A DNA stretch of 64,000 bases from Allobosea sp. 67-29 (GTDB lineage: Bacteria > Pseudomonadota > Alphaproteobacteria > Rhizobiales > Beijerinckiaceae). The stretch is from positions 525,236 through 589,235 of the forward strand of contig NZ_MKSQ01000005.1 of the NCBI RefSeq assembly GCF_001898115.1. The letters run 5' to 3'. The position numbers and the translations under genes were made by a program. The notes below the pieces were generated by a model that had not been told where the DNA came from, ran no database searches, and was given only the letters and a program-made list of their open reading frames with translations. Below are positions 6,853 to 47,024 of this stretch, in pieces; the first letter of the stretch is position 1, and every line of letters begins with the position of its first letter.

Positions 6853-8085
6853 TCAGCCGGCCCGCAGCAGGAAGAGGCCGACATCGATGCTCCTGGCGCG
6901 GAAGCCGGCCTCGCAATAGCAGAGGTAGAATTCCCACAGCCGGCGAAACCCGTCGTCGAAGCCGAGCGGGGCGATCTCATTCCAGCGCTCGAGAAACCGG
7001 CGGCGCCATTCGCGCAGCGTCAGAGCATAGCTGTCGCCGAAGCGGAACGGCGCGTCCATGCGCAGCCCGGCCGCTTGAGCCTGCGCGTCGAGGGCCGCGA
7101 CGGAGGGCAGGCAGCCCCCCGGAAAGATATAGCGCTGGATGAAGTCCGTCCCCGACTGGTAGCTCTCGAACAGGGCTTCGTCGATGGTGATCGCCTGCAG
7201 CACGATTCGGCCTCCGGGGCGTAGCGTGCTGTTCAGTCTGGCGAAGTAGCCCGGCCAGTAGGCGCGGCCGACCGCCTCGATCATCTCGATGGAAACGATG
7301 CGGTCGAACTGACCGGTGATGTCGCGGTAATCCTGCAGGCGCAGCTCCACCCGTTCGGCAAGGCCCGCCTCGGCGATCCGGCGCTGCGCGAAGGCGAGCT
7401 GGGCCGGCGAGAGCGTCACCGCCGTGACGCGGCAGCCTCGCTGCGCCAGCCGCTCGGCGAGGGCGCCCCAGCCGCAGCCGATCTCGAGCACGTGCTCGCC
7501 CCCCTTGAGGGCGAGCATCTCGATGATCCGGTCGAGCTTGTCCTGCTGGGCCGCCTCGAGGCTTTGCGTCGGCGCGGTGTAGAGCGCGGAGGAATAGGTC
7601 ATGCTGGCGTCGAGCCAGTGGCCGTAGAACGCATTGCCGAGGTCGTAATGGGCCGGGATGTTGCGGCGGCTGCCGGCGCGGCTGTTGGCGTTGCGCCAGT
7701 GCCGCAGCCGGTTGAGGAGCCGCGCCGGCCAGGTTCCGGAGACGAGCGCGCGCAGCGTCGCATCGTTGCGGGCCCCCAGCTCGATCAGCGCGGTCAGGTC
7801 CGGGGTAGTGAAATCGCCGTCGCGATAGGCATGGGCCAGGCCGACATCGCCATCGAGCAGCAGGCGGCGCATGGCGCGCCAGCGCCGCAGCACCATCATG
7901 GCCTGCGGACCCGGCAGCGAGCCGCCGCTCGACAGCCGCTCGCCCTCCGGCGTGACGACATGCAGCCGGCCGATCGCGATGCGCGCCAGCAGCTGCCGCA
8001 GGAACCAGCGCGAGAGCCCGAGGCCGCTTGGCAGCGCAAGGGCGGCATCCTTTGCCGGCGCATGATCGGTTTCGGGTAATGTCAT
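6853..8085 (-). CDS. cfa: Cyclopropane-fatty-acyl-phospholipid synthase family methyltransferase
   Basis: A 410-residue SAM-dependent methyltransferase that methylates cis-unsaturated acyl chains in membrane phospholipids. Motifs: the NIPAHYDLGNAFYGHWLD entry, the SAM-binding VLEIGCGWGALAERLAQRG, then SIEMIEAVG and the FIQRYIFPGGCLPS active-site region typical of Cfa. The ATG at 8085 overlaps the upstream DUF1365 gene by 4 nt. It is the third gene of a leftward operon (10222 to 6853) driven by a putative RpoE-type promoter at 10255-10284. Products could be cyclopropane or methylated/furan fatty acids; the sequence alone does not decide. Confidence 0.92.
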   Translation of the reverse strand: MTLPETDHAPAKDAALALPSGLGLSRWFLRQLLARIAIGRLHVVTPEGERLSSGGSLPGPQAMMVLRRWRAMRRLLLDGDVGLAHAYRDGDFTTPDLTALIELGARNDATLRALVSGTWPARLLNRLRHWRNANSRAGSRRNIPAHYDLGNAFYGHWLDASMTYSSALYTAPTQSLEAAQQDKLDRIIEMLALKGGEHVLEIGCGWGALAERLAQRGCRVTAVTLSPAQLAFAQRRIAEAGLAERVELRLQDYRDITGQFDRIVSIEMIEAVGRAYWPGYFARLNSTLRPGGRIVLQAITIDEALFESYQSGTDFIQRYIFPGGCLPSVAALDAQAQAAGLRMDAPFRFGDSYALTLREWRRRFLERWNEIAPLGFDDGFRRLWEFYLCYCEAGFRARSIDVGLFLLRAG

Positions 8086-8885
8086 CGCTGCATCGATCCT
8101 TTCGGATGAGGTGCCGAGATCTGTGCCGGGCTAAACGGCTGCGCCGGCGGCGCGGGGTGCGGCCACCACGGAATCCGCTTCGCCAGGAGCCTTAGCGCAT
8201 GCCAGTGGATGGCGGCCGTGACCTTCAGGGTCAGAAGCGGATGGGTCGCGAGCAGGCGCAGCAGCGTCGCATCGTCGAGCCTGCGGCGCGTGCCGCTCAG
8301 CACCGCCGCGATCAGGCGCCCACCGGCGTCGTGGCCGTCGATGGCGACGCAGACCTGCTCTCCGGGAGGCTCGACCCGGAAGGCGTAGCGCATCGAAAGT
8401 CCCATGAACGGCGAGACGTGAAAACGCTTCTGCGCCTCCTGCCGCAGCGGCCGCGCGCCGGACCCGGCCGGCGCGACATAGCTGTGCGTCTCGCCGAAGG
8501 TGTTGTGCACCTCGTAGACGGTCGCGCGCAGCTCCCCGTCGCTGGCGTAGCAGAAATAGGTGCTCAGCGGGTTGAAGGCATAGCCGAGGATGCGCGGCAT
8601 GGTCAGCAGCCTGGCCGTGGCGCCGTCCCAGTCGATGCCGGCGGCCGCCAGGACTTCGGCGAGCTGCGCCTTCAGCGGCCGTCCGCTGCCGTCGCCGTAA
8701 TCGGCGTCGCGGAAGGCGTAGAGATTGAAACGATTGCGCGAGAACAGGCGCGAGCCCCCGGCGATGGCGTCGATCTCGTCGAGATCGAGCAGCATCCAGA
8801 AGACGCGATAGGCCAGGGCGTGCGGCTTCGGACGGAAGCGATGATGCCGGACCCTGCCGACATAGAGGGCGGAGGCGATGCTCAT
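8082..8885 (-). CDS. DUF1365 family protein (COG3496)
   Basis: About 267 residues starting MSIASALYVGRVRHHRF, with the family motifs HALAYRVFWMLLDLDE, FSRNRFNLYAFRDADYGDG, LGYAFNPLSTYFCY and VYEVHNTFGETHSY. The biochemical function is not established. Family members co-occur with COG2907 flavoproteins and Cfa enzymes in RpoE-ChrR regulons; from memory, the Rhodobacter sphaeroides member (RSP1090) is needed for full singlet-oxygen signalling. Four-nt overlaps on both sides place it in the same operon as its neighbours. Confidence 0.88.
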   Translation of the reverse strand: MSIASALYVGRVRHHRFRPKPHALAYRVFWMLLDLDEIDAIAGGSRLFSRNRFNLYAFRDADYGDGSGRPLKAQLAEVLAAAGIDWDGATARLLTMPRILGYAFNPLSTYFCYASDGELRATVYEVHNTFGETHSYVAPAGSGARPLRQEAQKRFHVSPFMGLSMRYAFRVEPPGEQVCVAIDGHDAGGRLIAAVLSGTRRRLDDATLLRLLATHPLLTLKVTAAIHWHALRLLAKRIPWWPHPAPPAQPFSPAQISAPHPKGSMQR

Positions 8886-10222
8886 GCCGCGAGCTCGCGC
8901 GGGGCGGACGCGGGGATGCGGCCCGATTCGTCCTGGACCCGCCAGGGCCGGCGGGGCGCGCCCAGCGCCTCGGCGACGGCGAGCCCGGACTGCAGGCCGT
9001 CCTCGTGGAAGCCCGAGCCGAAATAGGCGCCGCAGAACCAGATCCGGCGCCGTCCCTGCAGGCCCCAGAGCCGGTCCTGGGCGGCCAGCGCGGCCCGGTC
9101 GAAGATCGGGTGCTCGTAGATCTCCTCGTGCAGCACGCTTTCGTCGCGCAATGTCGGGGGCGGGTTGAGGGTGACGAACAGGGCTCGCTCGCACGACAGG
9201 CCCTGCAGCCGGTTCATCCAGTAGGTCACGGCGCAGGCAGCGTCCGGCCGGCTGCGGTCGCCAAGGTGGTTCCAGCTCGCCCAGGCGCGGCGTCGCTTCG
9301 GCATCAGGGCAGCATCGCCGTGCAGGACGGCGCGATTGCGGCTGTACCGGAAGGCGCCTAGCGCCTGGCTTTCCTGCGCGTCTGGGTCGGCCAGAATCGC
9401 CAGGGTGCGGTCGGCATGCGTGGCGAAGACGACCTGGTCGAAGCGCTCGCTCCAGCCTTTGCCGGCGACCACGACGCCATCGGCAGCACGGCGGACCTCG
9501 CGCGCGGCCGAGCCGAGCCGGATCTCGCCCGTGAACGCCTGCCGCAGCTTTTCGACATAGCGCGCGCTGCCGCCGGCGACGGTGCGCCAGACCGGCCGGT
9601 CCGTGAGCTGCAGCAGCCCGTGATTGTGGTGGAAGCGCAGAAAGGCTTCGGCCGGGTAGGACAGGATTTCGGAGCAGGGGGCGGACCAGATCGCCGCGGC
9701 CATCGGCAGCAGATGATCGTCGATGAAGGCGCGGCCGTAACCGCCGGCAGCGAGGTAGTCGCCGAGCGTCGCAGCCGTGGCGGCGCCGCCGAGCGCGTCG
9801 CGGGTGGCGCCGCGATAGAAGCGCGCGATGTCCTGCAGCATCGCCCAGAAGCGCGGTTTGGCGAGGTTGCGCGGTTGGGCGAACAATCCGCCGAGGCTTG
9901 TTCCGCTATATTCGAGCCGTCCTGCGTCGAGCGAGACGGCGAACGACATTTCGGTCGGCTGCGTCTCGACCGCGAGATGGTCGAGCAGGGCGACGAAGTT
10001 GGGATAGGTCCTCTCGTTGTAGACGATGAAGCCGGTATCGACCGCGATCTCTCCGCCGGCCTCGTCCGGAACGCGCACCGTGTTCGCATGGCCACCGAGC
10101 CGGTCATCGGCCTCGATCAGCACGACCTCGTGCGCTTGGCCGAGAAGCCAGGCCGCGGAGAGGCCGGCGATGCCCGCCCCGATCACCGCGATCTTCTGCC
10201 CTTGTCCGATCATCCGTCGCAT
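8882..10222 (-). CDS. FAD-dependent amine-oxidase-like flavoprotein (COG2907)
   Basis: About 446 residues. The N-terminal dinucleotide-binding motif KIAVIGAGIAGLSAAWLLG is followed by GGHANTV and DTGFIVYNERTYPNFVALL, a hallmark of COG2907. The C-terminal FAD segment reads IWFCGAYFGSGFHEDGLQSGLAVAEAL. I chose ATG 10222 because it has a GGGAG ribosome-binding site and because the putative RpoE promoter (-10 at 10255-10260) places the transcript start just past the alternative ATG at 10249. Homologues are annotated as cyclopropane/modified fatty acid enzymes and sit in the singlet-oxygen regulon. The substrate is unproven; acting on unsaturated membrane lipid is the natural inference. Confidence 0.88.
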   Translation of the reverse strand: MRRMIGQGQKIAVIGAGIAGLSAAWLLGQAHEVVLIEADDRLGGHANTVRVPDEAGGEIAVDTGFIVYNERTYPNFVALLDHLAVETQPTEMSFAVSLDAGRLEYSGTSLGGLFAQPRNLAKPRFWAMLQDIARFYRGATRDALGGAATAATLGDYLAAGGYGRAFIDDHLLPMAAAIWSAPCSEILSYPAEAFLRFHHNHGLLQLTDRPVWRTVAGGSARYVEKLRQAFTGEIRLGSAAREVRRAADGVVVAGKGWSERFDQVVFATHADRTLAILADPDAQESQALGAFRYSRNRAVLHGDAALMPKRRRAWASWNHLGDRSRPDAACAVTYWMNRLQGLSCERALFVTLNPPPTLRDESVLHEEIYEHPIFDRAALAAQDRLWGLQGRRRIWFCGAYFGSGFHEDGLQSGLAVAEALGAPRRPWRVQDESGRIPASAPRELAA

Positions 10223-10254
10223 GGCCGCTCCCGGCGCTTGTTGCGCCATTGGGG

Positions 10255-10284
10255 TCTATACGGCGCCCGCCGTGCCCTGGATCT
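10255..10284 (-). promoter_or_regulatory. Putative RpoE (ECF11)-type promoter, leftward
   Basis: On the minus strand AGATCC (10279-10284), an 18-bp spacer ending in CG, then TATAGA (10255-10260). Architecture and spacing match the sites at 10317, 11417, 14962 and 15013. It drives the flavoprotein-DUF1365-Cfa operon. Confidence 0.7.
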
Positions 10285-10316
10285 GCCGGGGTGGGCCGGA
10301 AATTTCGAGGTCGCGG

Positions 10317-10346
10317 TGAGCCGCCGGCGCTCCTGGTTCGTAAGCG
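10317..10346 (+). promoter_or_regulatory. Putative RpoE (ECF11)-type promoter, rightward
   Basis: TGAGCC (10317-10322), an 18-bp spacer ending in CG, TAAGCG (10341-10346). It is back-to-back with the leftward site at 10255-10284 and lies 27 bp upstream of the ATG at 10374. Confidence 0.68.
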
Positions 10347-10373
10347 GCAGGATGGAGACAGGAGGTCCTGGTC

Positions 10374-10973
10374 ATGCTCGTCGAGGCTTGGAGGCGGCCG
10401 TTTGCCGCAGTCGGCAGATATGCGGCCCATCGCGAGCCGCGTGCGGCGATCGCCAATACCGTGGCGCTGGTGGTCGCATCGAACCAGCCATTCTATCCGC
10501 TCTATGTCGGCTGGCTCGTCTCCCCCGTCATCTGGCCGTCTTTCCTCACCTTTCTGTCGACGCCGCTTTTCGTGGCGGTTCCGCTCGCGATGCGTCGCGA
10601 TTCCCGGCTCGGCCGATCGCTGCTGCTGTTCGCCGGAATCGGCAACACGCTGCTCTGCCGCCTGGCTTTCGGAGCCGGGTCCGGCGTCGAGGTCTTCCTG
10701 CTCCCCTGCCTGATGCTGGCGATGCTGCTGTTCGCGGGCCGCGAGCGCGTGCTTGCTCTCGGTTTCGGGGCGCTCTGCTTCGCGGCCTATGCCGTGCCGG
10801 TCGCGGCGGTGATGGCACCGCTCCACTCCTACCGGATCGAGGACTACGCGGCGCTGGAGCGCCTCAACTTTCTGAGCGCGGCGTCGCTGACCGCTCTGAT
10901 CGGCTGGCTTTTTGCCAGGACATCGCCGGATCTGCCGCCCCAGGAGGAAACCGAAACCGGGCGGCGAGCGTAG
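10374..10973 (+). CDS. Uncharacterised multi-pass membrane protein in the RpoE-ChrR island
   Basis: A 199-residue protein with about five to six hydrophobic segments, for example LYVGWLVSPVIWPSFLTFLS, LLFAGIGNTLLCRLAFGAG and LGFGALCFAAYAVPVAAVMA, and a charged C-terminal tail. A strong GGAGGT site lies 8 nt before the ATG. I do not recognise a family. Its own putative RpoE-type promoter, divergent from the lipid-modification operon, suggests it belongs to the singlet-oxygen response. It is probably co-transcribed with the DUF2147 gene 32 bp downstream. Confidence 0.75.
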   Translation: MLVEAWRRPFAAVGRYAAHREPRAAIANTVALVVASNQPFYPLYVGWLVSPVIWPSFLTFLSTPLFVAVPLAMRRDSRLGRSLLLFAGIGNTLLCRLAFGAGSGVEVFLLPCLMLAMLLFAGRERVLALGFGALCFAAYAVPVAAVMAPLHSYRIEDYAALERLNFLSAASLTALIGWLFARTSPDLPPQEETETGRRA

Positions 10974-11005
10974 AAGGGGAAAGGATCCGCAGAGAGGACA
11001 CCCGC

Positions 11006-11380
11006 ATGAGACGCCTTCTGCTCGCTTCGGCGCTGTTGCTCGCACCGCCGGCCGCGGCCGGCGCCGCCTCCACCGCACTGGACGGCGTCTGGCTGCGCGA
11101 TGACGGCAACGCCCGCGTCCGGATTGCGCCCTGTGGAGACAAGATCTGCGCCACGAATCTCTGGATCGGCGATACGAGCAAGGGCGAGGAGCCCGGAGAC
11201 AAGCTGATCATGAGCCTGTCGCGCCAGCCCGACGGCAGCTTCTCCGGCACGGCCTACGATCCCAAGCGGGACTGGACCTATGCGATGACGGTGAAGACCG
11301 GTCCGGGCGAGCTCAGCACGCGCGGCTGCGTGCTGGGCCGCCTGCTCTGCCGCGATGTCGGTTGGAAGGCCGCCGAATGA
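11006..11380 (+). CDS. Small secreted DUF2147-like protein
   Basis: A 124-residue protein with a signal peptide (about 1-20, RRLLLASALLLAPPAAAGAA). The mature part, LDGVWLRDDGNARVRIAPCGDKICATNLWI ending in a LLCRDVGW motif, matches the DUF2147 layout: an N-terminal GxW strand, two central cysteines and a Cys near the end. The function is unknown; a periplasmic beta-barrel-like fold is usual for the family. It follows the membrane protein at 10374 and lies upstream of the sigma factor, whose promoter begins 36 bp after this stop. Confidence 0.8.
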   Translation: MRRLLLASALLLAPPAAAGAASTALDGVWLRDDGNARVRIAPCGDKICATNLWIGDTSKGEEPGDKLIMSLSRQPDGSFSGTAYDPKRDWTYAMTVKTGPGELSTRGCVLGRLLCRDVGWKAAE

Positions 11381-11416
11381 TCGGTCTGGCCGCGGCAGGC
11401 GAGATCGCAGCCGGAT

Positions 11417-11446
11417 TGATCCACTGGAACGCCGCGGCCGTATCTT
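11417..11446 (+). promoter_or_regulatory. Putative RpoE autoregulatory promoter
   Basis: TGATCC (11417-11422), an 18-bp spacer ending in CG, TATCTT (11441-11446). TGATCC followed by CGTA at this distance is the ECF11/RpoE promoter pattern known from Rhodobacter. It sits just before the sigma-factor gene, implying autoregulation. Confidence 0.8.
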
Positions 11447-11483
11447 GCCTATGGCTGTCGCATTCGCCTTCACTGTCGAACAG

Positions 11484-12071
11484 ATGCGCGAGGCGCCGGC
11501 CGTCGCGCGGGGAGATCGGTTCGTCGCTTTGTTCGATCCCAATGCCTTGATCGCCGCGATCGCGCGCTCGGGTGACCGGGCCGCTTTCGCCGAGCTGTTC
11601 GATCATTTCGCGCCGCGCGTGAAAGGGTTGCTGATGCGCGGCGGAGCCTCGGCCGAACTGGCCGAGGAGATCGCCCAGGAGACGCTGCTGTCGGTCTGGC
11701 GCAAGGCGGCCCTGTTCGATCCCGCCAAGGCCAGCGCCTCGACCTGGATCGCGACCATCGCGCGCAACCAGCGTATCGACATCGCCCGGCGGGAGACCCG
11801 CTCGCGGCTTTCGCAGGTTTACGAGATTCTCGATGAAGAAGCGCCCGAACGCCCTGACGAGATGGTCGCCGGAGCCCAGCGCGAAGCGCGGGTCAAGGCG
11901 GCCATGACGGAGCTGTCCGCCGATCAGTACCGGGTCGTGGAGCTCGCCTTTATCGAGGGCTTCAGCCATCAGGACGTGGCGAAGCGCCTCGCCATTCCGC
12001 TCGGTACCGTGAAATCGCGGTTGCGGCTTGCCCTGTCGCATCTGCGCGGCAAGCTGGAGGACCTGCGATGA
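11484..12071 (+). CDS. rpoE: ECF RNA polymerase sigma factor, RpoE/ECF11 type
   Basis: About 195 residues. Region 2 reads FAELFDHFAPRVKGLL to ETLLSVWRKAALFDP, with STWIATIARNQRIDIARRE typical of RpoE partners of ChrR. Region 4 is the HTH GFSHQDVAKRLAIPLGTVKSR. An ATG at 11451 is also in frame, but the predicted transcript start falls around 11452, so the ATG at 11484 (MREAPAVARGD) is preferred. The stop overlaps the chrR-like start by 4 nt. Family knowledge: this sigma factor directs the singlet-oxygen response and is held inactive by ChrR. Confidence 0.92.
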   Translation: MREAPAVARGDRFVALFDPNALIAAIARSGDRAAFAELFDHFAPRVKGLLMRGGASAELAEEIAQETLLSVWRKAALFDPAKASASTWIATIARNQRIDIARRETRSRLSQVYEILDEEAPERPDEMVAGAQREARVKAAMTELSADQYRVVELAFIEGFSHQDVAKRLAIPLGTVKSRLRLALSHLRGKLEDLR

Positions 12072-12691
12072 GCGCCGCCCATCGCCCGTCGGACGAGACG
12101 CTGGCCGCCTTCGCCGCCGGCAGCCTCGATGAGGGGCTCGCCCTCGTGGTGGCCGCCCATGTCGAGCTCGACCCCGAGAGCCGCCGCCGCGTGCGCGAAT
12201 TCCAGGCCGTGCAAGGCCTGCTGCTCGATGCCGCGGAGCCGGTCGCGATGGCGGGCCGCCCATCGGTCGGCGGCGGCCGAGCCGTCCCCGTGGCGTTCGG
12301 GGCCGGCGCCCCGCCGGTCGAGGCTGGAATGCCCCGCGTCCTGAGCCCCTACGCCCTCGGCGCCTGGCGGCCGATCGGCATCCGCATCGCGATGCGGCGG
12401 CTGTCGGTGCCGGGCGCGCAATCGCGCGTCTTCATGCTGCGGGCCGGACCCGGTATCGCCCTTCCGCATCACCGCCATACGGGCTTCGAATGGACGACGA
12501 TCCTCTCGGGAGCTTATGAGCATGAATATGGCCGCTATGCCGCCGGCGATTTCGACGAGGCCGATGCGGAGCACGATCACACGCCGCGGGTGGATCCGGT
12601 CGAGGGCTGCACCTGCATCGTCGCCATGACCGGCAATGTGCTGTTCCAGGGGTGGCTCGGGCGGTTGCTGCAGCCGCTGGTGCGGCTGTGA
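12068..12691 (+). CDS. chrR: ChrR-like anti-sigma factor with cysteine-less ZAS domain and C-terminal cupin
   Basis: A 207-residue ChrR-type anti-sigma factor. The N-terminal anti-sigma helices (about 1-60) keep H5 and H31, but the two zinc-ligand cysteines found in ChrR at about 35 and 38 are D35 and S38 here (HVELDPESRR). The C-terminal cupin (about 110-207) keeps likely metal ligands in PHHRHTGFEWT and the DHTP histidine. Translational coupling to rpoE (4-nt overlap) and to the DUF1295 gene (GTGA) is clear. Family role: binds RpoE in the cytoplasm and releases it on singlet oxygen. Without the cysteine pair, zinc binding in the N-domain must be altered or absent. Confidence 0.9.
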   Translation: MSAAHRPSDETLAAFAAGSLDEGLALVVAAHVELDPESRRRVREFQAVQGLLLDAAEPVAMAGRPSVGGGRAVPVAFGAGAPPVEAGMPRVLSPYALGAWRPIGIRIAMRRLSVPGAQSRVFMLRAGPGIALPHHRHTGFEWTTILSGAYEHEYGRYAAGDFDEADAEHDHTPRVDPVEGCTCIVAMTGNVLFQGWLGRLLQPLVRL

Positions 12692-13491
12692 CCGCGCTCT
12701 CGCTCGGCGCGGCGCTGCTGCTGGCCGCGGCGGCCATGTCGGCGGTAATGGCACTTGCCGCGGCGATCGAGCGCCGATCGGGGAATTCCGGCTGGATCGA
12801 CGTGGTCTGGACCTTCGGTCTTGGGGCCGTCGCCGCGCTGGGCGCGCTGCTGCCCTTCGGCTCCGGGCCGCACGACCGTCGCCTCTTCGTCGCCCTGCTG
12901 GCGATCGCATGGGCCTTGCGGCTCGGGCTGCATATCGTCCGTCGCACCCGCGGCATCGGCGACGACCCGCGCTATGCGAAGATGAAGCGCGACTGGGGGG
13001 CGAACGCCGCTGCGAGGCTCGCCTGGTTGCTGCAGCTTCAGGCTCTGGCGAGCGTCCCGCTCGCGCTCGGCGTCGTCCTCGCGGCGCATCGACCTGCGTC
13101 GCTCTGGCAGCCGCAGGACCTGATCGGGCTCGCCGTCTTCGTCACGGGTATCGTCGGAGGCGGCATCGCCGATGCGCAGTTGCGCGCCTTCGCGCGCTCG
13201 GGAGGGAAGGGCGTCTGCACGCGCGGTCTTTGGGGCTTCTCGCGGCATCCCAACTACTTCTTCGAATGCGTGCTCTGGTGCGCCTACCCTCTGATCGCTT
13301 TCGGCTTCGCCTATCCGTGGGGCTGGCTCGCCTGGCTCGCGCCGGCCTGCATCACGCTGCTGCTCGTGCGCGTTTCCGGCATTCCCCCGCTGGAGGAGCA
13401 CATGCTGGCCAAGCACGGCAGCGCCTATCGCGACTATCAGCGCCGGACCAGCGCCCTGATTCCGCTGCCACCAAAAGGAGCGATGCGATGA
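12688..13491 (+). CDS. DUF1295 family membrane protein (steroid 5-alpha-reductase-like, COG3752)
   Basis: About 267 residues from the GTG at 12688, which overlaps the chrR stop as GTGA. Several hydrophobic segments are present. Family motifs include SGWIDVVWTFGLGAVA, ALRLGLHIVRRTRGIGDDPRYAKMKRDWG, the C-terminal LWGFSRHPNYFFECVLW box (NAD(P)H/SAM-binding-like region of the reductase/ICMT superfamily) and PPLEEHMLAKHGSAYRDYQRRT. Genes of this family often sit beside rpoE-chrR and cfa. A role in membrane-lipid reduction or modification is inferred, not shown. Confidence 0.88.
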   Translation: MTALSLGAALLLAAAAMSAVMALAAAIERRSGNSGWIDVVWTFGLGAVAALGALLPFGSGPHDRRLFVALLAIAWALRLGLHIVRRTRGIGDDPRYAKMKRDWGANAAARLAWLLQLQALASVPLALGVVLAAHRPASLWQPQDLIGLAVFVTGIVGGGIADAQLRAFARSGGKGVCTRGLWGFSRHPNYFFECVLWCAYPLIAFGFAYPWGWLAWLAPACITLLLVRVSGIPPLEEHMLAKHGSAYRDYQRRTSALIPLPPKGAMR

Positions 13492-14519
13492 CGATGATGC
13501 AGAGGCTCTCCAATTGGGGCGAGGCGCTGCCCCTGCCGGATGCGATCAGTCGCCTGGTGATCGGCTCGCTCGTCGGACGCACGCAGCGCAGGCTCGCCGG
13601 CGAGCCGTCGAACGCGGCCGGCTTCGCCAGGGGCATGGCCGATTTCCCGATCGCGCTTCACACCGACACGGCCAATGCCCAGCACTACGAGGTGCCGGCA
13701 TCCTTCTTCGACCAGGTGCTCGGGCCGCGCCGGAAATATTCCTGCTGCTTCTATGCCGATGCCGGCGACAGCCTCGCGCAGGCCGAGGAAACCGCCCTGG
13801 CGCTGACGGCCGAGCATGCCGATCTCGCCGACGGCCAGGCCATCCTGGAGCTCGGCTGCGGCTGGGGTTCGCTCTCGCTCTGGATGGCCGAGCGCTACCC
13901 GCGCTCGCGGATCGTGTCCGTCTCGAACTCCGCTTCGCAGCGCGCCTTCATCGAGCGGCGCGCCCGGGAGAGCGGCTTCGACAACCTGCGGGTCGTCACC
14001 GCCGACATGAACGATTTCGCCACGGAAGAGCGTTTCGACCGCGTCGTCTCGGTCGAGATGTTCGAGCACATGGCGAACTGGCGCGCGCTCCTCGGGCGGG
14101 TGCGCGGCTGGCTGAAGCCGGACGGGCGCCTCTTCATCCATGTCTTCGTGCACGAGAACGGTTGCTACCGGTTCGATATCGCGGATCGCGGGGACTGGGT
14201 CGCCCAGCACTTCTTCACCGGCGGCATCATGCCCAGCGTCGCGCTGGCTCATCAGTTTCCGGAGCTGTTCGAGGTCGAAGCCGAGTGGCGCTGGAGCGGC
14301 GAGCATTATCGCCGCACCGCGGAGGACTGGCTGGCGAACTTCGACCGCAATATCGCCGGCATCGAGCCGGTGCTGCGCGAGACATATGGCGCGGAGGCGG
14401 GGCTCTGGCGGCGGCGCTGGCGGCTGTTCTTCCTGGCGACCAGCGGCCTGTTCGGCCATGCGGGAGGAACGCCCTGGGGCGTCGGTCACTATCGGCTGCG
14501 CCCGACCCCTGCCGATTGA
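13488..14519 (+). CDS. Second Cfa-family SAM-dependent methyltransferase
   Basis: About 343 residues, shorter than the Cfa at 6853. The N-terminal part reads AQHYEVPASFFDQVLGPRRKYSCCFY. The SAM-binding motif is AILELGCGWGSLSLWMAER, then SVSNSASQRAFIERRA, SVEMFEHMANW and FFTGGIMPSVALAH. It starts at ATG 13488, overlapping the DUF1295 stop by 4 nt, so rpoE-chrR-DUF1295-this gene form one operon. Its divergence from classical Cfa (SNSASQ in place of TLSPAQ) suggests a different methyl acceptor or product. Furan- or methyl-branched fatty acid synthesis is one possibility. Confidence 0.9.
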   Translation: MTMMQRLSNWGEALPLPDAISRLVIGSLVGRTQRRLAGEPSNAAGFARGMADFPIALHTDTANAQHYEVPASFFDQVLGPRRKYSCCFYADAGDSLAQAEETALALTAEHADLADGQAILELGCGWGSLSLWMAERYPRSRIVSVSNSASQRAFIERRARESGFDNLRVVTADMNDFATEERFDRVVSVEMFEHMANWRALLGRVRGWLKPDGRLFIHVFVHENGCYRFDIADRGDWVAQHFFTGGIMPSVALAHQFPELFEVEAEWRWSGEHYRRTAEDWLANFDRNIAGIEPVLRETYGAEAGLWRRRWRLFFLATSGLFGHAGGTPWGVGHYRLRPTPAD

Positions 14520-14537
14520 GGGCGAAGCCGAGGCGTC

Positions 14538-14939
14538 CTAGCCGACCAGGCGCCGCACGGCCTGGTAGGCGATCCAGCTGCACCCGCCCACGACGACCGT
14601 GCCGTAGATCACGTCGGCCACGGTGATCGCCAGCGTCCAGGGCCGCAGCGTAGCGTAGTTCGTCAGGTCATAGGTCGCATAGGCGAGAAGCCCGATCAGC
14701 GCGCCGTTGATCAGGGCCTCGCTTGCCTGGCCGCTGCGAAGAGCCGGCATCACCGCGAAATGCAGCACACCGAGCGGAAAGCCGAAATAGAACAGGGCCG
14801 CGGGCACATAGCGCACCGGCTCGGCGATGAGATCGCCGAGCGCCGGGCGATAAAGCCTCGCCGTCATGGTGCCGAGCCAGGCGGCATCGCAGAGCCCGAA
14901 GGCGACGAGGAAGGCGATGTAGCCGGCAACGAAGCGCAT
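14538..14939 (-). CDS. DUF2177 family membrane protein
   Basis: A 133-residue protein with four hydrophobic segments and the DUF2177 pattern: FLVAFGLCDAAWLGTMTARLYRPALGDL, RYVPAALFYFGFPLGVLHFAV, GALIGLLAYATYDLTNYATLRPW and DVIYGTVVVGGCSWIAYQAVRR. ATG 14939 has a GGAGGT site; a start at 14963 would lie at or upstream of the predicted transcript start. It converges with the second methyltransferase (18-bp gap). Function unknown; membership in RpoE-ChrR regulons is usual. Confidence 0.87.
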   Translation of the reverse strand: MRFVAGYIAFLVAFGLCDAAWLGTMTARLYRPALGDLIAEPVRYVPAALFYFGFPLGVLHFAVMPALRSGQASEALINGALIGLLAYATYDLTNYATLRPWTLAITVADVIYGTVVVGGCSWIAYQAVRRLVG

Positions 14940-14961
14940 GAGGACCTCCAGGCTGTTCTCC

Positions 14962-14991
14962 AAGATACGCCGGCCGCGCCCGGTCGGTTCA
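14962..14991 (-). promoter_or_regulatory. Putative RpoE (ECF11)-type promoter for DUF2177
   Basis: On the minus strand TGAACC (14986-14991), an 18-bp spacer ending in CG, TATCTT (14962-14967). It has the same -10 hexamer as the rpoE promoter. Confidence 0.72.
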
Positions 14992-15012
14992 GTCGGAGGC
15001 GGCCGTCGCCGG

Positions 15013-15042
15013 CGATCCGGAACGCCTGCCGGCGCGTATAGC
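15013..15042 (+). promoter_or_regulatory. Putative RpoE (ECF11)-type promoter for the esterase gene
   Basis: CGATCC (15013-15018), an 18-bp spacer ending in CG, TATAGC (15037-15042). It is divergent from the DUF2177 promoter and begins about 17 bp before the ATG at 15059. One mismatch in each hexamer makes it the weaker member of the set. Confidence 0.58.
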
Positions 15043-15058
15043 TGGCCATGCAGACCGG

Positions 15059-15916
15059 ATGGCGGCGCCGATCATGATCGCGAATTCACGACGAGCCTTC
15101 GTGGCGGCCGTGGCGGCGGGGCTGTCCTCGGGTTGCGCGGTCCTGCGGCCGGGACTCTTCGCAGCAGGCGCCCGCGACGTCGCCTACGGCCCCCATCCGC
15201 GCCAGACCATGGACATCTATGTTCCGCGCAGCGGCGGGGCGGATCGCCCGGTCGTGTTCTTCATCTATGGCGGCTCCTGGGCCAATGGCGACAAGGAAAG
15301 CTATGCCTTCGTCGGCGATGCCCTCGCGGCGCGCGGCTTCGTCGCCGTGATCGCCGACTACAGGCTGGTCCCCGACGTCCGCTTCCCGGTCTTCGTCGAG
15401 GACGGGGCTTCGGCGCTTCGCTTCGTTTATGACAACGTCGTGCGCTTCGGCGGCAATCCGCGCCGCATCCACCTGATGGGCCATTCCGCCGGCGCCTACA
15501 ACGCGATGATGTTGACGCTCGACGAACGCTACCTCGCTCGTGCCGGCCTGCCCGCCGATCTCGTCCGGTCGACGGTGGGCCTGTCGGGGCCGTATGATTT
15601 CCTGCCGCTCGATATCCCGGTGACGAAGGCCGCCTTCGGCAATGCGCCCGACCCGCGGCAGACCCAGCCGATCCGGTTCGTCCGCGAGGACGCTCCGCCG
15701 ATCTTCCTCGGCACGGGGGGCGACGATCGCACCGTCTTGCCGCGCAACAGCGAGCGCCTCGCGGCGGCGCTGCGGCGCGCCGGCGCGCATTCCGTCGAGC
15801 TCAGGATCTATCCGGGGCTGGGCCATGCGGGAACGGCCGCCTCCCTGGCGCGGATCATGAGCTGGCGTGCGAGCGTGCTCGACGACGTGGTCGCTTTTCT
15901 CGGCGCTCCGGCCTGA
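15059..15916 (+). CDS. Alpha/beta hydrolase (carboxylesterase/BD-FAE-like), probably exported
   Basis: A 285-residue serine hydrolase. The N-terminus RRAFVAAVAAGLSSGCAVL is signal-like; the LSSGC segment is not a perfect lipobox. Catalytic features: the oxyanion strand VVFFIYGGSWANGDKES, the nucleophile elbow LMGHSAGAYN, an acid near GGDDRTVLP and a histidine in PGLGHAG. ATG 15059 or ATG 15074 could be used. A putative RpoE-type promoter just upstream suggests it is part of the singlet-oxygen island, perhaps acting on lipid peroxides or damaged acyl esters (inference). Confidence 0.85.
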   Translation: MAAPIMIANSRRAFVAAVAAGLSSGCAVLRPGLFAAGARDVAYGPHPRQTMDIYVPRSGGADRPVVFFIYGGSWANGDKESYAFVGDALAARGFVAVIADYRLVPDVRFPVFVEDGASALRFVYDNVVRFGGNPRRIHLMGHSAGAYNAMMLTLDERYLARAGLPADLVRSTVGLSGPYDFLPLDIPVTKAAFGNAPDPRQTQPIRFVREDAPPIFLGTGGDDRTVLPRNSERLAAALRRAGAHSVELRIYPGLGHAGTAASLARIMSWRASVLDDVVAFLGAPA

Positions 15917-46209: not shown

Positions 46210-47024
46210 AGCATTCCGATCCATTCCGCGACTTTCGCCGTAAACGCGTCGGGGCGCGAGTTCGGGAAGAAGTGGCCGCCGCTGTCGAGCAGGATCAGCG
46301 TCGGCTCGAGCAGGGCCGCAGCCAGCTCCTCCTGAAGGAAGGCGGGGACGATCAGGTCGTCGCGTGCCCCCAGCACGAGCAGCGGCATGGTGAGGGCTCC
46401 GGCGTCCGCGCTGCCGTCGAAGGCCAGGAGGGCGTCGATGCGCTCCCGGACGATCTGGCGCGCTTCCGGCGTCTGCGGGGCTGCGGCCGCCGCCGCCTCG
46501 AAGACCGGCCAGTTCGCCTCGAGCCAGGCAGGCGGGTAGGCCATCAGCGCGGAGCTTGCCGCATAGGCCTCCGGCAACGGGTCGAGGATGGCCCGCCGTG
46601 CGCCGAAGAGCGCGCTCATGTAGCGGCCGGGCCTCAGCCAGCTCGCGCTCAGGATGAGGCCGCGCAGCCGTTCCGGCGCCATTGTCCCGAGAGCCTGGCC
46701 GATGCAGCCGCCGGTCGAATGACCGAGCATCACGCAGCTTTCGATGCCGGCCGCATCGAGCACGGCGAGGCAATCGGCCGCGAGCTGCGCGATGGTGCAG
46801 GGGGCGCTGCCGCGGCTGCTCGCGCCGATGCCGCGCTGGTCGAAGCGCAGCACGCGAAACTGCCGGCTCAGCGTCGCGGAGGCTCCTTTCCAGAAACCAG
46901 CGGTTCCGCCGAGGCCGCTGACCAGCAGCAGCGGTGGCCCCGACCCTTCGGACCAGCATCTGAGCCGGGCGCCGTCCGGCAGCGCGACCTCGAAGCTGCC
47001 ATCCGCTTTCACCGCCGCGCTCAT
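46206..47024 (-). CDS. Alpha/beta hydrolase
   Basis: A 272-residue hydrolase. PPLLLVSGLGGTAGFW (oxyanion), FDQRGIGASSRG, nucleophile elbow VMLGHSTGGCIGQALG, acid in GARDDLIVP, histidine in SGGHFFPNSRPD. This is the MhpC/enol-lactonase style of fold used for C-C hydrolysis or lactone opening. Four-nt overlaps on both sides tie it to the NIPSNAP and dehydrogenase genes. Confidence 0.9.
   Translation of the reverse strand: MSAAVKADGSFEVALPDGARLRCWSEGSGPPLLLVSGLGGTAGFWKGASATLSRQFRVLRFDQRGIGASSRGSAPCTIAQLAADCLAVLDAAGIESCVMLGHSTGGCIGQALGTMAPERLRGLILSASWLRPGRYMSALFGARRAILDPLPEAYAASSALMAYPPAWLEANWPVFEAAAAAAPQTPEARQIVRERIDALLAFDGSADAGALTMPLLVLGARDDLIVPAFLQEELAAALLEPTLILLDSGGHFFPNSRPDAFTAKVAEWIGML

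Follow-up and report, generated by a model that had tools for sequence, protein, structure and literature searches.

Can an ECF11 sigma factor circuit operate with an anti-sigma factor that has lost the cysteines of its zinc site? This question is raised by a stretch of 64,000 nt of Allobosea sp. 67-29 (GCF_001898115.1, NZ_MKSQ01000005.1, forward strand, positions 525,236 to 589,235), in the following called the window. The genome is Bosea-like. An island of the window (6853..15916) contains eleven ORFs in five transcription units, each with a promoter site upstream, and two divergent promoter pairs (Table 1). The genes, their families, the five units behind the sites, and the two divergent pairs had been proposed in a preliminary description, and all of them were recovered. 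Families of the published ECF11 core regulon account for 5 of the 11 genes, common neighbours in relatives for three, and lineage-specific genes for three. Much of this layout is already known for the family, and the island falls within a known type of stress regulon, one that protects membrane lipids. We consider it quite probable that the island as a whole is an ECF11 RpoE-ChrR regulon with a ChrR devoid of zinc in the anti-sigma domain, a leaderless rpoE mRNA, and a furan-lipid output.

Table 1. Promoter sites and genes of the island (window coordinates)
Feature	Position	Strand	Remarks
Promoter of ufaD-ufaO-ufaM	10284 to 10255	-	AGATCC-N18-TATAGA (AGATCC-N16-CGTATA); ECF11-type
Promoter of MASE7 membrane protein-DUF2147	10317..10346	+	TGAGCC-N18-TAAGCG (TGAGCC-N16-CGTAAG); ECF11-type
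Autoregulatory promoter of rpoE	11417..11446	+	TGATCC-N18-TATCTT (TGATCC-N16-CGTATC); ECF11-type; start codon 34 nt from first base
Promoter of DUF2177	14991 to 14962	-	TGAACC-N18-TATCTT (TGAACC-N16-CGTATC); ECF11-type
Promoter of esterase	15013..15042	+	CGATCC-N18-TATAGC (CGATCC-N16-CGTATA); ECF11-type
UfaM-like CFA-type methyltransferase	6853..8085	-	Pfam CMAS 279.9 bits; operon with ufaO/ufaD; named by family (PMC7380195)
UfaO-like DUF1365 protein (putative furan ring oxygenation)	8082..8882	-	Pfam DUF1365 273.9 bits; UfaO contains DUF1365 (PMC7380195)
UfaD-like desaturase, FAD amine-oxidase family	8882..10249	-	family match; RSP_1091 ortholog annotated as flavin-containing amine oxidase (PMC5507510, table 2)
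MASE7-like membrane domain, stand-alone, 199 aa, without catalytic domain	10374..10973	+	Pfam MASE7 28.7 bits
DUF2147 protein, 124 aa	11006..11380	+	family match
rpoE, ECF11 sigma factor, 206 aa	11451..12071	+	poorly conserved N-terminal extension of about 30 aa
chrR, anti-sigma factor	12068..12691	+	D35 and S38 in place of zinc cysteines; cupin H135 H137 E141 H171
DUF1295 membrane protein	12688..13491	+	family match; also a weak steroid 5-alpha-reductase match
Second CFA-type methyltransferase	13488..14519	+	FufM-like by analogy only (FufM from PMC7380195); 29% to UfaM-like protein
DUF2177 membrane protein	14538..14939	-	family match
Alpha/beta-hydrolase esterase	15059..15916	+	Pfam BD-FAE 106.9 bits

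Identity of the sigma/anti-sigma pair

The best solved relatives of the two proteins were SigE and ChrR of Rhodobacter sphaeroides, which bears out the ECF11 identity that had been assigned earlier. RpoE matched 2q1z_A with an E value of 4e-40, and its gene lies directly before, and overlaps, the ChrR-family gene. ChrR scored 152 bits against TIGR02451 (cut-off 124.5), and 173.7 bits over residues 5-207 against NF051881, a narrower NCBIfam ChrR equivalog model with a cut-off of 300. The promoter type was confirmed as well: the island sites fit the consensus TGATCC-N16-CGTA that ChIP-seq yielded for ECF11 (RpoE-ChrR; PMC5507510), and rpoE is preceded by an autoregulatory promoter of this form.

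The start of rpoE

Because the rpoE start codon lies only 34 nt from the first base of the promoter, the rpoE mRNA is predicted to be leaderless, and translation would have to begin on such an mRNA. Alternatively, the start at 11451 might be misassigned and the true start might lie downstream, e.g. at the ATG at 11484, which would give the mRNA an ordinary leader. Two findings speak for this: selection on codons 2-30 of the N-terminal extension is weak (dN/dS 0.60), and many loci of the window's group have an in-frame ATG at offset 67. However, of 100 alphaproteobacterial rpoE genes that have a site, 89 contain a start in frame at 33-37 nt from the -35 element, even though the extensions differ between clades. 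Outside the Alphaproteobacteria, this spacing was found in only 1 of 11 rpoE genes, and before ufaD, MASE7, DUF2177 and the esterase gene at only 8 of 111 sites, six of the eight being esterase sites. A downstream start is thus unlikely in our estimate; because of the weak constraint on the extension, the ATG at offset 34 may nevertheless not be the sole start. A leaderless rule for the other units was rejected (ufaD 2/42, including the window's own site; MASE7 0/18; DUF2177 0/39; esterase 6/12). A promoter placed on the start codon, a layout common among the ECF11 rpoE genes of Alphaproteobacteria and rare in the other classes examined, suggests a leaderless feedback loop. In the open-access papers searched, no related work pairs "leaderless" with "ChrR".

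A ChrR without the zinc-ligand cysteines

The anti-sigma domain of the window's ChrR lacks both zinc-ligand cysteines, Cys35 being replaced by Asp and Cys38 by Ser (HVELDPES; ungapped in this region against 2z2s). Accordingly, the protein does not contain the ZAS (zinc-binding anti-sigma) motif H/C-X24/25-H-X3-C-X2-C (PMC6432622). The zinc ligands of the C-terminal cupin-like domain are kept, and this was also true for 80 of 81 rows (the window plus 80 named loci) and for 55 of 56 rows of a second sample. Neither cysteine was present in any of the 29 sampled rows of the window's clade, which has 100/100 support; some other lineages also lack them, and the tree requires three changes of state. 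Residues 35 and 38 are limited to few types, mostly Asp/Asn and Ser/Thr. At position 35, replacements in the 36 rows with cysteine loss included Asp (17), Asn (11), Arg (5) and Ser (2). A paralogue from the same genus (L036, the second copy in genome G012) combines Asp35 with Cys38.

One explanation would be that the cysteine-less domain still binds zinc, with His5, His31, Asp35 and one more residue as ligands. Among the 36 cysteine-loss rows, His31 never varies and His5 rarely does, 29 rows have both, and Asp is the commonest replacement at position 35. Yet Asn, Ser and Arg are poor or impossible zinc ligands, and His5 is lost in 7 of the 36 rows, so that we regard zinc retention as rather improbable. 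We favour a domain that works without zinc, in which Asp/Asn and Ser/Thr could cap helix 3 instead. In the ChrR model, positions 35 and 38 are located at the start of this helix (helices 22-34 and 36-55; pLDDT 94-98 for residues 11-50), and the best fold matches were R. sphaeroides ChrR. Because the AlphaFold alignment mixes in cysteine-bearing relatives and the ChrR fold may be reproduced from known structures, the model is no evidence of zinc-free stability. The Arg35 of Brevundimonas (5 rows) is at odds with helix capping.

A second explanation would be the decay of anti-sigma function in ChrR, leaving RpoE constitutively active and the regulon deaf to oxidant. Inhibition of sigma-E in R. 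sphaeroides indeed needs zinc binding (review PMC6852236), and the -35 elements of ufaD and DUF2177 are mostly non-consensus in the cysteine-less lineages, as if offsetting a leaky sigma factor. In contrast, the dN/dS of the anti-sigma domain was 0.19 in the window's group (19 rows lacking the cysteines), close to the 0.155 of nine chosen cysteine-bearing rows, and the domain thus stays under purifying selection. In addition, chrR has not been separated from rpoE within the clade, and residues 35 and 38 are restricted as described. Decay is therefore very unlikely. No title on a zinc-less ChrR came up in searches of open-access papers; the ECF reclassification paper lay outside these searches, and a prior mention may exist.

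Cysteine loss and the strength of target promoters

A perfect TGATCC was found at 1 of 34 ufaD and 2 of 29 DUF2177 sites in the cysteine-loss lineages, but at 31 of 33 ufaD and 17 of 18 DUF2177 sites in the cysteine-bearing lineages, after sites without a perfect CGTA at the 16-bp gap had been dropped (1/35 ufaD and 4/33 DUF2177 with cysteine loss; 9/42 ufaD, 13/31 DUF2177 and 11/45 rpoE in cysteine-bearing lineages). The rpoE promoter keeps TGATCC where the cysteines are lost. We hypothesize that cysteine loss goes with a non-consensus -35 element at the ufaD and DUF2177 targets. Tree-based pairing leaves only two to three independent pairs for this correlation, which Caenispirillum contradicts; two Brevundimonas also retain TGATCC before DUF2177. 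In a follow-up of 13 loci, those of family f47 had TGATCC in 0 of 3 cysteine-loss and 5 of 8 cysteine-bearing cases (Fisher P 0.18), and the remaining two loci, G088 and G164, had no usable ufaD site. It is conceivable, if doubtful, that loss of the zinc site re-tuned the whole circuit more than once, towards sensing by the cupin domain only (or by membrane lipids), an undiminished leaderless rpoE promoter, and attenuated -35 boxes at the targets.

Specificity and conservation of the five sites

A pattern search found the five sites with the exact 18-bp spacer and with CG before TA in all five cases, as had been described. The AGATCC and CGATCC sites depart from a strict TGANCC and are within the earlier wording "TGANCC-like". 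In the 64-kb window, [ACT]GANCC...CGTA with a spacer of 18 had six matches, five inside the island and the sixth at 46217, whereas 16 other spacers (10 to 26) yielded 0-3 matches each (mean 0.69). In the 4.86 Mb genome, TGANCC-N16-CGTA, a pattern that leaves out the AGATCC and CGATCC sites, had nine matches (reversed-pattern control: 10), and three of the nine fall in the 9-kb island (binomial P 5e-7). Matrix scoring, as suggested in the preliminary description, was performed with 113 sites of loci L081-L141, which are outside the window's nearest group and include four loci named Bosea. The five sites ranked 1, 2, 3, 6 and 8 among 127,942 window positions, with the rpoE site (11417) at the top. 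Two of them scored just 14.5 and 12.8, and one or both were outranked by 46217, 9714 and 5003 (ranks 4, 5 and 7). These three positions head no island gene, and the 46217 match is antisense within listed ORFs.

Most of the five sites were conserved in relatives, another check that had been proposed. The site before the esterase gene was conserved in 16 of 18 group loci and that before the MASE7 membrane protein in 17 of 20, and the esterase gene directly follows chrR on the same strand in six loci without the Bosea label; these findings strengthen the membership of both genes in the regulon. Of the 19 group loci with ufaD, 18 have AAATCC as its -35 element; before DUF2177, 15 of 20 have TGAACC, and the -35 element of the esterase gene is highly variable. 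Coincidental matches in GC-rich DNA, or recognition by a different ECF sigma factor, might be suspected from the short motif core and the similar scores at 46217, 9714 and 5003, but either is extremely improbable in view of the spacer control, the genome-wide count, the matrix ranks and the conservation.

Six strict matches are located outside the island in the whole genome, and two of them were read by eye in their sequence context. One lies, in antisense orientation, where a presumed YggS-like frame begins, upstream of a presumed leuS-like frame, and the other lies inside an apparent coding frame before a presumably trpB-like gene. None of the outside matches was accepted as a regulon target. 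No site was found within the 3.5-kb locus of the photolyase gene (G000:C7, locus L172). Because ufaD itself has AAATCC in nearly all group loci, targets of this type elsewhere in the genome would escape a TGANCC scan, and calling the island "self-contained" therefore goes beyond the evidence.

Function of the regulon and proposed mechanism

The island had been described as a singlet-oxygen membrane-lipid regulon. The membrane-lipid part can, on family grounds, be narrowed to the synthesis of furan fatty acids: genes of the UfaM, UfaD and UfaO families lie together behind the ECF11-type site at 10284, and judging from these families their products would form methylated furan fatty acids within membrane phospholipids. 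The singlet-oxygen part is inherited from relatives; the ChrR of the window has no counterpart of the Zn(Cys)2(His)2 site in the protein that was studied. The MASE7 match is marginally above the Pfam gathering cut-off of 26.2 bits, and the model of this protein (pLDDT 84.4) had the membrane cyclase 7yzk as its best fold match.

In the proposed mechanism, ChrR would hold RpoE through an anti-sigma domain that still binds it without zinc. A membrane oxidant signal, in analogy to relatives singlet oxygen or an organic hydroperoxide, would free RpoE, with sensing placed in the cupin domain or upstream of ChrR. RpoE, translated from the leaderless mRNA made by its own promoter, would then transcribe its own operon and the four neighbouring units from TGATCC-N16-CGTA-type promoters. 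Besides furan fatty acid synthesis, the removal or sensing of damaged lipid is a probable role of the products.

The literature disagrees on the mechanism by which ChrR senses singlet oxygen: from peptide chemistry, a key event may lie at the zinc cysteines (PMC6432622), genetics points to the cupin domain, and a 2019 review called the role of the anti-sigma-domain zinc in ChrR unknown. A minority of cytoplasmic anti-sigma factors is already on record as lacking the zinc motif, which 92% possess (PMC6432622); the new element would be their place in a conserved ECF11 regulon. Lineages that lack the cysteines and keep the sigma factor, the promoters, the furan-fatty-acid families and the cupin ligands offer a natural test of the zinc-cysteine sensor model. 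If the circuit was re-tuned in this way, ECF11 systems would require the Zn(Cys)2(His)2 site neither as a singlet-oxygen sensor nor for sigma binding.

Comparison with known systems

The closest system is sigma-E (RpoE)-ChrR of R. sphaeroides, which is alike in its sigma/anti-sigma relatives, promoter motif type, UfaD/UfaO/UfaM families and cupin zinc ligands. It differs in that the window's ChrR lacks Cys35/Cys38 and in that ufaM joins ufaO, ufaD and rpoE-chrR in one island, instead of occupying a separate locus such as RSP2144. The published ECF11 core regulon also includes a photolyase, a short-chain dehydrogenase and a lipoprotein (PMC5507510); here, the photolyase is outside the island, and MASE7, DUF2147 and the esterase are added. 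The UfaM, UfaD and UfaO families are shared with the furan-fatty-acid pathway of Rhodopseudomonas palustris and R. sphaeroides (PMC7380195) and stand behind ECF11-type promoters in the window, where the genes were assigned by family rather than by comparison with those proteins, and FufM by analogy.

The PSPTO_1043/1042 ECF11 regulon of Pseudomonas syringae has the promoter consensus in common, and its targets include a diguanylate cyclase and the esterase/lipase PSPTO_4843 (10-fold, qRT-PCR, sigma overexpression; PMC5507510). That regulon is scattered over the genome, whereas the window's is gathered in an island, and the esterases are likened by gene type. In a different ECF system, sigma-R/sigma-R' of Streptomyces coelicolor (PMC4921905), a stress-induced autoregulated promoter gives rise to a sigma factor with an extra N-terminus; the isoform and its instability were shown there, and a similar isoform may occur in the window.

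Absence of the zinc cysteines from ChrR

The ChrR of the window was compared with that of R. sphaeroides (2z2s). The zinc knuckle aligned ungapped, and the two zinc-ligand cysteines of the anti-sigma domain (ASD) were replaced, Cys35 by Asp and Cys38 by Ser. The comparison was extended to 80 homologous loci (L062-L141, the named loci), which represent 80 of 83 confirmed matches to the ChrR alignment. They lie partly on the same contigs as our other locus set, such that the two sets are not independent. Among the 81 aligned rows, 45 had both cysteines, 35 had neither, and one (Kaistia) had a single cysteine; a further 56 high-scoring loci (L142-L171 and L173-L198; the second sample) gave 51, 4, and 1. 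The same-genus paralogue L036 carries Asp35 but Cys38. The cupin ligands (H135, H137, E141, H171) were retained in 80/81 and 55/56 rows, respectively, the exceptions being L090, with a deletion, and a row of the second sample with gaps there.

In a tree calculated without columns 35 and 38, the window belonged to a clade of 29 rows, mostly Bosea and Phreatobacter, with 100/100 support and neither cysteine. Caenispirillum, and Brevundimonas together with Kaistia, were placed apart from it, and the tree needs three changes of state. The tree is unrooted, and we infer that these changes were losses rather than gains. Position 35 was replaced by Asp (17), Asn (11), Arg (5), or Ser (2), and position 38 by Ser (27), Thr (5), Ala (3), or Asn (1). 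In the ChrR model, helix 2 extends to residue 34 and helix 3 from residue 36 on, which places residue 35 at a helix start. Helix capping by this residue may substitute for zinc, a proposal that does not cover the Arg cases. The dN/dS of the ASD was 0.19 in the window's group (19 rows, L073 left out) versus 0.155 in cysteine-bearing rows (9 chosen of 45); for the cupin domain, the values were 0.09 and 0.16. Thus, the cysteine-less ASD does not look decayed.

The -35 boxes of two target promoters differed between the two types of ChrR. A perfect TGATCC preceded ufaD in 31/33 and DUF2177 in 17/18 cysteine-bearing rows, versus 1/34 and 2/29 rows that had lost a cysteine, whereas the rpoE box was perfect in both (33/34 and 33/36); rows without a perfect CGTA at the 16-bp gap were dropped from these counts, more of them cysteine-bearing. 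The independent events were too few for a test of correlation, and Caenispirillum disagrees with the pattern, which a follow-up in family f47 only weakly favours (0/3 with a cysteine lost versus 5/8 cysteine-bearing).

Promoters of the island

The preliminary description had proposed five promoters with a TGANCC-like hexamer, an 18-bp spacer, and a TA-rich hexamer preceded by CG, and a pattern search bore out both their positions and their form. When the spacer of [ACT]GANCC...CGTA was varied from 10 to 26 bp in the 64-kb window, 18 bp yielded six matches, and the 16 other spacers a mean of 0.69 (range 0-3). TGANCC-N16-CGTA occurred nine times in the 4.86-Mb genome (reversed control: 10), and three of the nine lay inside the 9-kb island (P 5e-7). 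A matrix was trained on 113 sites preceding rpoE, ufaD, and DUF2177 in L081-L141, which are outside the window's nearest group (the window and L062-L080), yet four bear the label Bosea. Of the 127,942 positions of the window, it placed the five sites at ranks 1, 2, 3, 6, and 8; the positions in between (46217, 9714, and 5003, at ranks 4, 5, and 7) head no island gene. The first of these is the sixth match, CGATCC-N16-CGTA, antisense inside listed ORFs.

Most of the sites are kept across the nearest group.

Features of the window and its genome, and forms of the promoter sites in the nearest group
Feature	Position	Strand	Nearest group
ufaD site	10255		19/19; AAATCC in 18
MASE7 site	10317		TGAGCC or TGACCC, 17/20
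rpoE site	11417		TGATCC, 19/20
DUF2177 site	14962		TGAACC, 15/20
Esterase site	15013		some site in 16/18; four AAATCC (relaxed pattern)
ufaD-ufaO-ufaM (by family)	10249-6853	-	
Second CFA-type enzyme	13488		
Nine-codon frame after the esterase site	15048-15077		
ATG overlapped by the TGA of this frame	15074		
Sixth pattern match	46217-46246	+	
Photolyase match (L172)	G000:C7:49149-49637		

The ufaD sites suggest that functional sites may depart from TGANCC, such that weaker targets elsewhere in the genome would escape the scan, and the island may not be self-contained. chrR is patchy in the genus, as 11/36 same-genus relatives had no match and 5/36 a distant match only. One relative (G012) contains two island copies (L035 and L036), with ChrR proteins 78-79% identical to that of the window. 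In five loci of one Bosea group (L049-L052, L054), the UfaM-like gene does not follow ufaO but lies beyond DUF2177, indicating that the island was rearranged yet stayed together; in L049 and L051, the esterase is likewise beyond DUF2177. Several Bosea (L066, L069, L072, which shares a contig with L042, and L075) have a second, distant ECF sigma gene beyond ufaM (36-38% to rpoE).

The start of rpoE

A strict site preceded 67 of the 81 rpoE genes, and in 62 of these an in-frame start codon followed 33-37 nt from the first base of the -35 box, mostly at 34 or 35 nt, that is, 4-5 nt past the -10 hexamer. With a slightly looser pattern, the spacing was found in 17/22 further loci (30, minus 7 without a site and 1 without an rpoE match). 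In a third set, also with a looser pattern (26 loci, 4 without a site), it was found in 10/11 within the class or order versus 1/11 in other classes of the phylum. Both of these sets may share genomes with the named loci. For the other ECF11-type promoters of the named loci, the counts were 2/42 (ufaD), 0/18 (MASE7), 0/39 (DUF2177), and 6/12 (esterase). Judged from this spacing, rpoE transcription probably starts at the start codon, yielding a leaderless mRNA. In the window's group, rpoE codons 2-30 had a dN/dS of 0.60 versus 0.085 for the remainder, and a lower synonymous divergence (pS 0.29 versus 0.48). Thus, the extension stays in frame, and constraint is weak.

Members of the regulon

The published core comprises rpoE, chrR, RSP_1087 (short-chain dehydrogenase), RSP_1088 (lipoprotein), RSP_1090, RSP_1091, phrB, and cfaS (PMC5507510, table 2; see also PMC6852236). 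PMC7380195, on furan fatty acids, assigns UfaM to RSP2144, UfaD to RSP1091, UfaO to RSP1090 (DUF1365), and FufM to RPA0924. With ufaD-ufaO-ufaM assigned by family, five of the eleven island genes are core members. By analogy, the second CFA-type enzyme may be FufM-like. DUF1295, DUF2177, and the gene for this enzyme accompany rpoE-chrR in many named loci, DUF2177 in 64/81 including the window. Photolyase is an ECF11 target in other bacteria; no ECF11-type site was found in the 3.5-kb locus around the single photolyase match.

The 199-residue membrane protein is the sole MASE7 match in the genome, a marginal one (28.7 versus 26.2 bits), and occurs in 20/80 named loci (all 19 of L062-L080, plus L117). 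A fold search with its model (pLDDT 84.4) gave Rv1625c, a membrane adenylyl cyclase, as the best match (7yzk; E 1e-3, TM 0.66 on the query) and no other at or below 0.001. Hence, the protein appears to be a membrane sensor domain of the cyclase type that lacks the catalytic part.

Membership of the esterase, previously inferred, gained support from six loci not labelled Bosea (L093, L094, L098, L102, L103, L108), in which the family directly follows chrR on the same strand. In the window, an ATG 35 nt from the -35 box opens a nine-codon frame, the TGA of which overlaps an ATG at 15074, which might permit leaderless entry and then coupled re-initiation. By eye, the N-terminus of the protein read from 15074 is Tat- and lipobox-like (SRRAFV...LSSGC).

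Comparison with known ECF11 systems

The consensus TGATCC-N16-CGTA was obtained by ChIP-seq in P. syringae, where it is said to resemble the Rhodobacter/Caulobacter motif (PMC5507510), and is also reported for Shewanella (PMC4336711); the promoter motif of the window is this consensus. A diguanylate cyclase is under ECF11 control in P. syringae (PMC5507510), and a link to the MASE7 protein would be speculation. One possibility for the RpoE extension is a stress-specific, perhaps labile isoform, for which sigma-R' of Streptomyces (PMC4921905) offers the comparison. For ChrR, PMC6432622 makes the case that a key event in sensing may be the oxidation of the zinc cysteines, and describes their role as debated and the cupin domain as required. 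In R. sphaeroides, inhibition needs zinc binding, and the exact role of the ASD zinc is given as unknown (PMC6852236). A lineage that lacks the two cysteines but retains everything else makes the role of the zinc site testable.
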